From Aminobacter anthyllidis (GTDB lineage: Bacteria > Pseudomonadota > Alphaproteobacteria > Rhizobiales > Rhizobiaceae), in contig NZ_JAFLWW010000019.1 in the NCBI RefSeq assembly GCF_018555685.1, forward strand, positions 1-34,624: a stretch of 34,624 nt of DNA. The letters run 5' to 3'. The position numbers and the translations under genes were made by a program. The stretch's first letter is position 1, and each line of letters opens with the position of its first letter. Below, in pieces: positions 30,729 through 34,624 of this stretch. The notes under the pieces were generated by a model. That model did no database searches. It was not told the DNA's origin and worked only from the letters and a program-made list of their open reading frames with translations.

Positions 30729-32273
30729 ATGATAACAATCGACGCATCTCCAACTTGGCAGGACATCGCGCGGATCGGCGATGGTGAGACGCTGGCACTT
30801 GCGCCTGCCGCCTGGGAGCGGGTCGCATTCGCAAACCGGATCGTGGCGCGAATAGTTGAAAACGGCATTCGCGCCTATGGCGTGAATACCGGCGTTGGCG
30901 CGCTGTCGAACACGGTGGTCGAACCTGCCTTGCTGCAGCGACTTTCTCGCAACATCATTTTCAGCCACGCTTGCGGGGTCGGTGATCTGCTGCCGGAGCG
31001 CAGCATCCGTGCCATCATCGCATCGCAGGTGGCCAATTTTGCGCACGGCCATTCCGGAGTGCGACCAGAGGTCGTTCTCAACTTGCTGAGCTTCCTGGAG
31101 CGCAACTGCATCCCAGAGGTGCCGTCTCGAGGGTCGGCGGGATATCTCACGCACAACGCACACATTGCCCTGGTGTTGATCGGCGAGGGCAGGGCGTGCG
31201 TCGCAGGGCGTCGGATGAACGGGGGTGACGCACTGGCCGCTATTGGAATTGAGCCACTGGTGCTCGGCGCCAAGGAAGGCCTCAGCCTGGTCAACGGTAC
31301 AGCCTGCGCTACTGGACTTCTGTGCGTGGCATTGGCACGCGTCGAACGCCTGTTGCGCTGGGCCAATGCAGCTGCGGCCCTGACGCTCGAGGCCGCCGGC
31401 GGCCAAATGGCGGCCTTTGACGAGCAAGTCCTCGCCATGCGCCCGTCGCCCGGTATCGAGGCGGTCGGCGCAACACTGCGCGGGTTGCTCGAGGGCAGCG
31501 GCCTGATTGAGGCGGCCCGCGGGCAGCGCACACAAGATGCGCTCAGCCTTCGCGCTATACCCCATGTGCATGGTGCCGCACTTGAGGTGATGGAGCGTTC
31601 CGCACAGCTGGTCGACCGCGAATTGGCTTCCGTCACGGATAATCCTGCTGTCTCGGGTACGCTGGAAAACCCACTGGTCTTTTCAGAGGCGCATGCAGTT
31701 GCGCCCGCTTTGGGTCAGGCTGCCGACAGTCTGACGATCGCTCTGGCTCAGGTGGCGGCCATGAGCGAGCGACGCATCGACCGCCTGGTCAATCCACTGG
31801 TCAACGATCTGCCGGCGTTTCTCGCCAGCGAAGGCGGCTGCAATTCTGGCTTCATGATCGCGCAGTATACCGCCGCTTCGCTGAGCAACGTGAACCGCCG
31901 CCTGGCGGCCCCGGCTGCGACGGACGGTGGTGTCACATCCGGCTTGCAGGAAGACTTCCTCGCCCATCCAACCGTTGCGGCCAACAAGCTGCTCGCGGTC
32001 ATCGACAACGCCGAATACATCCTGGCAATTGAACTGATGGCGGCAGCGCAGGCGCATGACTTCCTGGCCGGCAAGAAAGGGCGCGCCCCTCGAACAGATG
32101 CGATCTATCGCACTGTTCGCGAGCACGTGGCACATTATGCAGACGACCGCCCGCTATCATGGGACATGGAAACGCTCCGCGATTTCATTCGCTCGGCGGA
32201 TGCGCCCAACAGGCTGACCAGCCGGTATGCGCTGCTTGAGCCGCTGCAGGCGAAACGTCCACCACCAGCTTGA
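30729..32273 (+). CDS. HAL/PAL-family lyase homologue lacking the MIO motif
   Basis: A 514-aa protein collinear with histidine/phenylalanine ammonia-lyases over its whole length: AYGVNTGVGALSNTVV with the catalytic-type Tyr50, LVNGTACATGLLCVAL with Asn189, SERRIDRLVNPLVND, GCNSGFMIAQYTAASLSNVN and DNAEYILAIELMAAAQAHDF. The Ala-Ser-Gly that cyclises into the MIO electrophile is missing: where family members have GSVGASGDLAPLAHM, this protein reads GSAGYLTHNAHI (residues 135-146), a clean three-residue deletion with the flanks retained. The QDxYS tyrosine is replaced by Leu272 (QDALSLR) and the usual GNFHG loop is absent (SEAHAV). The fold should persist, but MIO-dependent deamination should not occur. 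It is convergent with the deacylase gene and overlaps its end. Confidence 0.9.
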   Translation: MITIDASPTWQDIARIGDGETLALAPAAWERVAFANRIVARIVENGIRAYGVNTGVGALSNTVVEPALLQRLSRNIIFSHACGVGDLLPERSIRAIIASQVANFAHGHSGVRPEVVLNLLSFLERNCIPEVPSRGSAGYLTHNAHIALVLIGEGRACVAGRRMNGGDALAAIGIEPLVLGAKEGLSLVNGTACATGLLCVALARVERLLRWANAAAALTLEAAGGQMAAFDEQVLAMRPSPGIEAVGATLRGLLEGSGLIEAARGQRTQDALSLRAIPHVHGAALEVMERSAQLVDRELASVTDNPAVSGTLENPLVFSEAHAVAPALGQAADSLTIALAQVAAMSERRIDRLVNPLVNDLPAFLASEGGCNSGFMIAQYTAASLSNVNRRLAAPAATDGGVTSGLQEDFLAHPTVAANKLLAVIDNAEYILAIELMAAAQAHDFLAGKKGRAPRTDAIYRTVREHVAHYADDRPLSWDMETLRDFIRSADAPNRLTSRYALLEPLQAKRPPPA

Positions 32274-33255
32274 ACAGGCAATCTCCCGGCTCGGTTAGTG
32301 CAGGAGCCCGTTGGCAGGCAACGAGACCAGACTTCGCGAACTGCACCAATCTGGCAGGCTCGGACGGCCCGGCAATCGGATGAATGACGCCGGCAAGATC
32401 TCCCGCCTGAACCTCGTCTCCCACGGCCACGGCAGGCTCGAAGATCCCTCTGACGGGCGCGTAGGTGAACGCCTGCCTGCCATCGACCCGCATGGATCGC
32501 GTTGCATCAGCCGGTTCGACAATAGCGTCGGGCAGGATGCCCATGTGCTTCAGCACGCGCAGCACGCCGTCTCGGGCAAGGGCTTCGCCTTTCCGTGACA
32601 TCGTCGCGCCACCGCCGAGTTCGGTCGTCAGGGCTGGAATGCCGAGCATCTGGGCTATTGCTGACAGTGTCGAGGCGCCGCCGCCGCCGGAACCGTCACT
32701 GATCGAGCCGATTGGAGCGCCGAAGACGCGCATGAGTTCGATCAGACTTGCCGTCTCGGCTGCGGTCTTGCCCACGCGGATCAGGCAGCAGGGGAGATAG
32801 AGCAACGAGGTGCCACCGGAATGCAGGTCGATGACGATGTCGGCGAGCGGCAGCAGCACCTCAGAGACATAGTGGGCGATCATGTCAGTCGGTGTGCCAT
32901 TGGCGTCGCCGGGAAACATCCGGTTGAGATTACCCTGATCGAGCGGCGACACGCGTCTGCCTGCGTCCACCGCGGGATAGTTCAATGCTGGCAGGATAAT
33001 GATGCGGCCGCGGAGCTCGCTTGCATCGAGTTGCCGGGCGAGCTTGCTGAGCGCCACCTGGCCCTCATACTCATCGCCATGATTGCCGGCGACAAGCAGT
33101 GCAGTTGGCCCGTTGCCATTCCTGATGCAGACGATGGGGATCGGAATGGTGCCATAGGCCGACCGATCGCTCGAAAACGGCAAACGCAGGCACGATATCT
33201 GCTTGCCGTCCTTGTCGAAGTCGATGTCCGTCCAGATGCGTGTGTCGGTTGCCAC
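32185..33255 (-). CDS. DoeB/succinylglutamate desuccinylase-aspartoacylase-type deacylase
   Basis: A 356-aa zinc-dependent deacylase of the AstE/AspA family, closest in layout to DoeB/EutE (N-acetyl-diaminobutyrate deacetylase of ectoine catabolism). The zinc ligands are visible: His59 and Glu62 in GNHGDEYEG, and His145 in IDLHSGGTSL. The substrate-binding Asn-Arg is in GNLNRMFPGD, the catalytic Glu region is TTELGGGAT, and a C-terminal beta domain (VGDEVQAGDLAGVIHPIAG) ends the fold. After LFKLVVDV, where relatives usually stop, a further 25 residues overlap the lyase gene by 89 bases. The ATPase gene lies 12 bases upstream, so it is cotranscribed with the transporter. Substrate: probably an N-acylated amino acid, unproven. 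Confidence 0.88.
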   Translation of the reverse strand: MATDTRIWTDIDFDKDGKQISCLRLPFSSDRSAYGTIPIPIVCIRNGNGPTALLVAGNHGDEYEGQVALSKLARQLDASELRGRIIILPALNYPAVDAGRRVSPLDQGNLNRMFPGDANGTPTDMIAHYVSEVLLPLADIVIDLHSGGTSLLYLPCCLIRVGKTAAETASLIELMRVFGAPIGSISDGSGGGGASTLSAIAQMLGIPALTTELGGGATMSRKGEALARDGVLRVLKHMGILPDAIVEPADATRSMRVDGRQAFTYAPVRGIFEPAVAVGDEVQAGDLAGVIHPIAGPSEPARLVQFAKSGLVACQRAPALTEPGDCLFKLVVDVSPAAAQAAHTGWSACWAHPPSE

Positions 33256-33267
33256 CGGTCCGTCCTC

Positions 33268-34017
33268 TCAATGCAGCAGCGTGTTGAGGAAAGACTGGGC
33301 GCGCGGATGACTGGGTGTCGAAAAGAACGTCATCGGCGACGCCTGCTCGACAATGCTGCCCTGATCCATGAACACCACCTGGTCGGCAACTTCCCGGGCA
33401 AAGCCCATCTCATGGGTGACGCAGATCATCGTCATGCCCTCGTGAGCCAGCCCGGTCATGACGTCGAGCACCTCCTTGACCATTTCGGGATCGAGCGCGG
33501 AGGTTGGCTCGTCGAACAGCATGAGGCGCGGGTTCATGCAGAGCGCCCGCGCAATCGCCACCCGCTGCTGCTGTCCGCCTGACAATTGCGCGGGATATTT
33601 GTCGGCTTGTTCGGGAATACGGACCTTTTCGAGGAAATGGCGCGCCAGGCTCTCAGCCTCCTTGCGCGGCATGCGAAGTACCCGCCGCAGCGCCAGCGTG
33701 CAGTTCGACAACACGGTCAGATGTGGAAACAGGTTGAAGCTCTGGAACACCATTCCGGTCTGGCGACGGGCGAGTGCTGTCTCCCTGGCATTGTCACCCA
33801 GCCTGATCGTGGCAAGTGTGACGGTTCCCTGCTGGTAGGCTTCAAGTCCGTTCAGGCAGCGGATCAGCGTCGATTTGCCTGAACCGGACGGTCCGCAGAT
33901 CACGACGCGGGATCCGCTTGGGATGGTGAGGTTGACCTCCTTCAACACATGGAAGGCGCCATACCACTTGTTGAGCGAGGATATCTGGACGGCAGGTTTG
34001 TCGTCTGTCTGGGTCAT
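33268..34017 (-). CDS. Polar amino acid ABC transporter, ATP-binding subunit
   Basis: A 249-aa ATPase of the HisP/GlnQ/EhuA type. Walker A is [10 protein letters not shown] (residues 42-50), the Q-loop is [18 protein letters not shown], the signature is [15 protein letters not shown], Walker B is [15 protein letters not shown] and the switch His is in VTHEMGFA. It energises uptake of an amino-acid-like solute at the inner membrane. It stands between the permease and deacylase genes in one minus-strand operon. The periplasmic binding protein and other permease presumably lie beyond the right edge. Confidence 0.95.
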
Positions 34018-34106: not shown

Positions 34107-34624
34107 CTATCTGGTTGTCGGTCCCAGCAGGCGGGTCTCGAGCCGTTTGATGGCCAACGAGATGAGGAGTGCGAGACCGAGAAAGATCAGGCCCGCGACC
34201 GTCAGCGGCTCGGCGTAGCGGTAGGTCTCGGAGGCAATGTCGAAGGCACGTCCCAGCATCTCCGGCACCGCAAGCACCGCCAGATAAGGCGTCGCCTTGA
34301 GGATAGAGACGAAGTAGTTACCCATGGGTGCTGCGATGTTGCGCAGCATCTGCGGGGCGATGACAAAGACGGTCATATCGATCCTGCCGAGCCCAAGTGC
34401 CCTTGCGGCCTCCGCCTGACCGTTGGGGATGGCATCGATGCCGGCCTTGAACACCTCGGCGAGATAACCGCTGTAATAGAGGCTGAGCCCGATCATGCCT
34501 GTGGCAAGCGCACCAAGGCGAATGCCGTAAAACGGCAGGATGAAATACAGGCAATAGAGCCAGACCAGCACTGGCGTCGCCCTGATGAAGTCGATCAGGA
34601 AGCGGACGAACAGCCCTCCCAACC
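34107..34624 (-). CDS. Polar amino acid ABC transporter, permease subunit (partial)
   Basis: The C-terminal 170 or so residues of a HisMQ/GlnP/EhuC-type permease; the N-terminus lies outside the window. It shows the family's RATPVLVWLYCLYFILPFYG opening, membrane helices, and the EAA-loop equivalent GQAEAARALGLGRIDMTVFV that contacts the ATPase, followed by ILKATPYLAVLAVPEMLGRA and a final helix before RLETRLLG. The gap to the ATPase gene is 89 bases. It belongs to the same operon as the ATPase and deacylase. Confidence 0.93.
   Translation of the reverse strand, partial: LGGLFVRFLIDFIRATPVLVWLYCLYFILPFYGIRLGALATGMIGLSLYYSGYLAEVFKAGIDAIPNGQAEAARALGLGRIDMTVFVIAPQMLRNIAAPMGNYFVSILKATPYLAVLAVPEMLGRAFDIASETYRYAEPLTVAGLIFLGLALLISLAIKRLETRLLGPTTR

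Follow-up and report, generated by a model that had tools for sequence, protein, structure and literature searches.

A contig of 34,624 nucleotides from Aminobacter anthyllidis, analysed whole and called the window below, encodes a protein of the HAL/PAL fold in which the residues that form the MIO cofactor are missing, raising the question of whether it is still an enzyme and, if so, on which substrate it acts. The protein (the window lyase; Table 1) covers positions 3-466 of the 466-position PF00221 profile (482 bits) and scores 467.6 bits against the NCBIfam hutH model, under the cut-off of 539.15. A plasmid copy 96.8% identical to it carries the annotation hutH, and its relatives are annotated 'histidine ammonia-lyase'.

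Where canonical enzymes have GSVGASGDLAPLAH, the window lyase reads GSAGYLTHNAH, with GSAG followed directly by YLTHNAHI. Because this block holds no X-Ser-Gly, no MIO is expected, and an alternative gap register restoring the triad was rejected since the block has neither Ser-Gly nor Cys-Gly. An earlier note on this DNA had described the MIO-forming Ala-Ser-Gly as precisely deleted. Its open reading frame, coordinates and residue-level claims were correct when compared with the ORF, the PF00221 match over nearly the whole profile and the alignment; the triad is absent and three residues are certainly missing, although their identity depends on the alignment (in one, Tyr139 lies under Ala142 and the gap spans 143-145).

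Conservation of the gap was determined in 81 close loci, defined as the best 80 of 578 relatives in the species-genome collection plus the window locus, and in 92 members once 11 deeper ones were added (10 from genomes of the same order and one from a plasmid). The pattern GS[AV]GY[LI] occurred in 81/81 close loci, 80 of them from genomes other than the window's, and in 92/92 members examined (91 by pattern, L069 by eye). In the residue alignment, from which four near-duplicate plasmid or genome rows were left out (L083, L084, L132 and L133), Ala-Ser-Gly was present in 39/39 canonical rows, two of which (L001 and L092) are the same gene, compared with X-Ser-Gly or X-Cys-Gly in 0/92 clade members. 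Between the window lyase and three Aminobacter relatives, dS values of 0.158, 0.412 and 1.006 were found against dN values of 0.009, 0.043 and 0.064 (dN/dS 0.06-0.10), and the gene is under purifying selection. Sequencing error and gene decay were rejected, since the loss of the triad is common to all close loci and the gene is under such selection; neither the missing 9-base segment nor the decaying singleton that the earlier note had named as grounds for abandoning its view fits these loci, which instead support its claim of a maintained protein with changed chemistry. The window lyase and its clade are genuine HAL/PAL-fold proteins that lack MIO and have been maintained. At least 157 plasmid records (1 + 6 + 150, counted by identity) carry a stretch at least 60% identical to the window lyase, and among the plasmid matches listed all annotated records are named histidine ammonia-lyase.

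The last ~18 residues of the window lyase differ from those of a 98%-identical relative (L080) as a result of a 5-base difference after position 32219, which is far from the residues at issue. The overlap between the convergent lyase and hydrolase ORFs is 89 bases in the window and 30 in L080. Aminobacter carboxidus Contig_5 carries two copies of the MIO-less lyase (L003 and L080) ~35 kb apart, together with an ergothionase-type gene.

Table 1. Features of the window lyase and its immediate surroundings.
Feature	Position	Strand	Basis or remark
MIO-less PF00221 lyase (window lyase), 514 residues	30729..32273	+	ORF and PF00221 profile match
GSAGYLTHNAH, residues 135-145	31131..31163	+	Three residues shorter than GSVGASGDLAPLAH; no X-Ser-Gly
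Leu272 codon, position of catalytic Tyr280 in Pseudomonas HAL	31542..31544	+	Alignment
Tyr380 codon, position of ergothionase Lys383	31866..31868	+	Alignment
AstE/AspA-family hydrolase, DoeB-like	32185..33255	-	PF24827, 138 bits; convergent with window lyase
Polar amino-acid ABC transporter ATPase, GlnQ/EhuA-like	33268..34017	-	Under both cut-offs; orthologue in L083
ABC permease, EhuD-like	34107..34622	-	Under cut-off; truncated by contig end

Active sites of the HAL/PAL fold are built from several subunits, and within the site of HAL/TAL/PAL it is the Ser-His pair that favours an imidazole ring. Numbering residues by Pseudomonas HAL in the alignment, we take Tyr53, His83, Asn195, Gln277, Tyr280, Arg283, Phe329 and Glu414 to be the functional-site residues of HAL. 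Tyr53, Ser82-His83, Asn195, Gln277, Arg283 and Glu414 were invariant in 92/92 members, the window lyase keeping Tyr50, His80, Asn189, Arg275 and Glu408. Position 280, in contrast, was Leu in 92/92 members and Tyr in 39/39 ASG-bearing rows, while position 329 was Ala or Pro in the 92 members and Phe in all 39 ASG-bearing rows; in the window lyase the GNFHG loop is replaced by SEAHAVAP. The alignment thereby confirmed what had been read from the window earlier, namely that Tyr50 and Asn189 are retained, that Leu272 stands at the second catalytic Tyr and that the GNFHG loop is gone. Two further tyrosines, Tyr139 adjoining the gap and Tyr380, are both invariant in the clade. The position of ergothionase Lys383 was occupied by Tyr in 92/92 clade members, Lys in 15/15 ergothionase-type rows and Val or Cys in 38/39 canonical rows, and Tyr was also found there in one canonical row and in Thermoplasma HAL (7tqr), so that Tyr380 was rejected as a mark of MIO loss. 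A strict rule equating Leu280 with absence of MIO was likewise rejected, because two PF00221 proteins (L141:2935-4296 and L142:4348-2888) have Leu for Tyr280 together with Ala-Cys-Gly for Ala-Ser-Gly.

MIO-free members of this fold are already known. Ergothionase (ergothioneine trimethylamine-lyase; Treponema denticola, PDB 6s7j/6s7q) shares the fold and, like the window's clade, lacks the triad; 6s7j also shares Leu at Tyr280, as well as Tyr53, Ser-His, Arg283 and Glu414. In contrast to these similarities, the window lyase is only 28.9% identical to 6s7j, the gap is one residue in ergothionase and three in the window's clade, and ergothionase Lys383, Phe326 and Ser194 are Tyr, Ala and Asn in the latter. 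Lys383 is presumably the catalytic active-site Lys of ergothionase. All 15 ergothionase-type rows lacked the triad and had the one-residue gap, Leu280 and Lys at the 383 position; five further ergothionase-like rows had the one-residue gap and Leu280, with Lys in 4/5 and Ala in a Sinorhizobium meliloti row, which led us to reject Lys383 as a strict mark of the type. Unlike the window lyase, HutH (Pseudomonas putida 1b8f; Thermoplasma 7tqr) has the MIO triad, Tyr280 and the Phe329 loop. In a tree of 66 rows, which included 15 of the 81 close loci and a subset of the canonical ones, with gap columns kept in and several rows on long branches, the window clade received support of 100/100 and the ergothionase type formed a separate group (100/99). 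The AU test rejected neither a single clade of all MIO-less rows (p 0.395) nor a clade of the window clade plus the ergothionase type (p 0.265).

A Klebsiella protein joined the window clade in the same tree at 94/88. It is the MIO-less PF00221 lyase of Klebsiella pneumoniae plasmid p205880-1 (L086:4977-6509), distinct from that of the window and annotated 'aromatic amino acid ammonia-lyase'. Its GSVGYLIATAH block resembles the window's clade in the three-residue loss with Tyr, and it has Leu280 and Tyr at the Lys383 position, but it differs in its 37% identity and in having Gly for both Asn195 and Phe329. Lyases of the Klebsiella type occurred in 167 plasmid records at ≥80% identity (54 + 109 + 1 + 3), counted by identity with the motif read in L086. 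The Klebsiella lyase is accompanied by hutU, hutC, hutF and a related OpuAC-type transporter (ATPase and permeases 60-62% identical); given this transporter and these hut genes, the two types of MIO-less lyase may act on the same substrate.

Other MIO-less lyases were found on plasmids. That of a Rhizobium anhuiense plasmid (L087:7977-9482) is of the ergothionase type with Ala-Arg for Ser-His, and its neighbours are hutC, betaine-type ABC genes, ornithine cyclodeaminase, MaoC, SDR and CoA-transferase; it is perhaps a lyase for another amino-acid betaine, the acrylate being routed via CoA. On a Paracoccus saliphilus plasmid, an ergothionase-like lyase (L208:8908-10596; 38% to 6s7j) lies directly downstream of hutI-H-G-U, with hutF diverging. 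An ergothionase-like lyase without the Lys, on S. meliloti pSymA (L209:8923-10563), lies ~2.7 kb from a DMSP-lyase-family gene (PF16867), which encodes another onium-elimination enzyme.

To place the clade in its genomic context, neighbours were counted in the 81 close loci within flanks of up to 8 kb, transporters being scored by their ATPase and binding-protein genes. HutC was encoded within 5.5 kb of the lyase in 64/81 loci and an amino-acid or betaine-type ABC transporter near it in 61/81. The most frequent arrangement, a polar amino-acid ABC transporter upstream with the ATPase adjacent and a binding protein, was found in 51/81, OpuAC-type transporter genes in 10/81, an N-methyl-L-tryptophan-oxidase-type flavoenzyme downstream in 36/81, and HutF, HutI or HutG within 9 kb in at least 26/81. 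A representative HutC scored 297 against a TIGR02018 cut-off of 220, yet fell under the NF011575 cut-off, and a representative flavin oxidase reached 418 bits, the cut-off being 257. One locus (L123) has the order hutD-hutU, hutC, hutF, transporter, MIO-less lyase, hutI, canonical hutH and oxidase. The transporter and lyase also lie beside hut genes on three annotated plasmids, those of Rhizobium johnstonii 3841 (pRL11, where the lyase gene is RL_RS30855), Sinorhizobium sp. B11 and Rhizobium sp. L51/94, with hutC or the oxidase missing in one or other of them.

Binding proteins were compared with solved relatives through representatives. That of the rhizobial polar transporter (L084:8692-9534) was nearest to octopine- and nopaline-binding proteins, whereas Lmo1422 and the binding domain of the ergothioneine transporter EgtU were the nearest solved relatives of the one OpuAC protein compared (L066); for the Klebsiella OpuAC-type protein, engineered sensors of acetylcholine and nicotine ranked alongside or just ahead of Lmo1422 and EgtU. 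EgtU Glu375 was kept in 10/10 OpuAC-type loci, but Asn339, Tyr341 and Tyr443 were replaced by Asp, Asp and Gln in 10/10 and in Klebsiella, and Tyr419 by Phe in the OpuAC-type loci and Leu in Klebsiella. Histidine itself can also be a substrate of OpuA-type systems, as in HutXWV.

The window's own branch (15/81 close loci: Aminobacter, Mesorhizobium and one 'Rhizobiales') showed none of the counted hut, HutC or transporter neighbours. The earlier note had proposed to look for a conserved clade with the same neighbours; the clade exists, with HutC and histidine- or betaine-type transport in most of it but not in the window's branch. Two relatives on this branch (L003 and L013) have an S15-family hydrolase and parts of an oligopeptide-type transporter near the lyase; the window instead has the DoeB-like hydrolase (TIGR02994, 281.9 bits, under the cut-off of 402.7) and an Ehu-like transporter, and the order of lyase and hydrolase is the same in L080 and L083. 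A hut operon (L092: hutD, U, G, H, I, F, C) lies elsewhere in the window's genome, and urocanate could therefore still be used there.

Linkage to histidine utilization was also determined at the genome level in an order-wide sample of 199 genomes, 14 of which carried the gene at an identity of ≥47%. HutU scored above its cut-off in 14/14 genomes with the gene and in 85/185 without it (Fisher one-sided p 3.5e-5, an indicative value as the genomes are related), and was also found in 10/10 further genomes reached via close loci. In 7/14 genomes HutU lay within 10.3 kb of the lyase, and in 6 of those 7 the sole HutU found was 5.8-7.1 kb away. Canonical HutH with Ala-Ser-Gly was encoded elsewhere in all 14 gene-bearing genomes; hence the clade lyase is not a substitute for HutH but adds to it. 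Most simply, its product is urocanate.

Taken together, these data make it probable that the clade breaks down a modified form of histidine, most likely histidine betaine, without the help of a cofactor. From the residues and the gene context we infer substrate, product, leaving group and residue roles as follows. The substrate would be the betaine of an imidazole amino acid, most likely hercynine (Nalpha-trimethyl-histidine), from which the enzyme would eliminate the quaternary amine at the alpha carbon. The products would be trimethylamine and urocanate, the latter entering the ordinary hut pathway. Since trimethylamine leaves without help, the electrophilic MIO would not be needed, which is also why ergothionase needs none. 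Arg275 would hold the carboxylate, His80 and Glu408 would hold the imidazole and join Tyr50 in acid/base chemistry, and Tyr139 and Tyr380 may surround the N(CH3)3+ group. Hercynine is preferred because it is the natural trimethylated histidine that would yield urocanate rather than thiourocanate. Ammonia, on the other hand, is an unlikely leaving group, because MIO-deficient PAL mutants are inactive: in the excerpted texts of the two studies, S153A had practically no activity on L-Phe (PMC3903478) and S154A no hydroamination activity (PMC12535398).

We therefore put at slightly better than even the chance that the window lyase functions as a MIO-independent lyase of this fold, most likely converting hercynine to urocanate and trimethylamine; a MIO-independent lyase had been the first option of the earlier note, which these data support. 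It is the rhizobial members that make the best case for this substrate; identical active-site residues carry it over to the window. Counting against hercynine are the window's own branch, with its lack of the counted hut, HutC and transporter neighbours, and the OpuAC-type binders, which do not keep EgtU Asn339, Tyr341 and Tyr443. In the open-licence literature, nothing was found pointing to a hercynine-to-urocanate reaction; the two names occurred together in one paper, a metabolomics study (PMC7253363).

The commonest transporter (51/81) also speaks against hercynine, not being of the betaine type and having a tested binder nearest to octopine and nopaline binders. It would suit a MIO-free lyase or related enzyme acting on a secondary-amine derivative of histidine, such as an opine-like N-carboxyalkyl-histidine or N-methyl-histidine, with the flavin oxidase of 36/81 loci handling the same class of compounds. 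A secondary amine, however, leaves no more easily than ammonia, so this reading would leave the loss of MIO unexplained, nor do the 10 OpuAC-type loci fit it, and we consider it unlikely. An ergothionase, converting ergothioneine or its sulfonate to thiourocanate (or its sulfonate) and trimethylamine, would account for the absence of MIO and the Leu280 that the clade has in common with that enzyme. An ergothionase has moreover been reported in Agrobacterium radiobacter, according to excerpts of PMC13405746, which describes the enzyme as free of MIO, and PMC7653990, and in seven Agrobacterium genomes the sole PF00221 gene without Ala-Ser-Gly belongs to the window's clade. Yet the hydratase linked to the clade is an ordinary HutU, and these same genomes encode one HutU each, at 950-974 bits. 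Identity to 6s7j is low, Lys383 is replaced by Tyr throughout the clade (though Lys is not universal, as the S. meliloti Ala shows), and the clade falls outside the ergothionase-type group, albeit with a common MIO-less clade not rejected. We regard this assignment as quite improbable.

The intact substrate-site residues of HAL, along with a histidine-type transport ATPase and HutC nearby, would be compatible with a MIO-free ammonia-lyase acting on L- or D-histidine itself, and a MIO-independent pathway of PAL hydroamination has been suggested before, as mentioned in PMC12535398. The excerpt of that study, however, rules out such a route for its own system, the MIO-deficient PAL mutants there and in PMC3903478 lose activity, and canonical HutH is present in 14/14 sampled genomes, making this very improbable. 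The loss of two catalytic features of HAL, MIO and Tyr280, might instead indicate a non-catalytic protein binding histidine or urocanate, or another activity altogether; we give this scarcely any weight, as the remaining HAL residues are invariant in 92/92 members and ergothionase shows that catalysis is compatible with the loss of both features.

Hercynine trimethylamine-lyase thus remains our preferred reading, and the window's clade is probably a lyase for histidine betaine. No description of the clade was found in the open-licence literature, and its members are annotated as histidine ammonia-lyase although they lack the residues needed to form MIO. Should hercynine be the substrate, the clade would supply an enzyme through which histidine betaine can be used, and would also be a trimethylamine source. 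Histidine betaine was depleted from soil crusts, yet no isolate of that study took it up, according to an excerpt of PMC4595634. More tentatively, and at somewhat less than even odds in our judgement, MIO loss across the superfamily may track the leaving group, all MIO-less PF00221 clades being betaine lyases that share Leu280 and the window's clade being the missing hercynine trimethylamine-lyase. With the histidine-site residues of HAL kept and MIO and Tyr280 dropped, the clade is a clean natural test of when the fold needs its cofactor.
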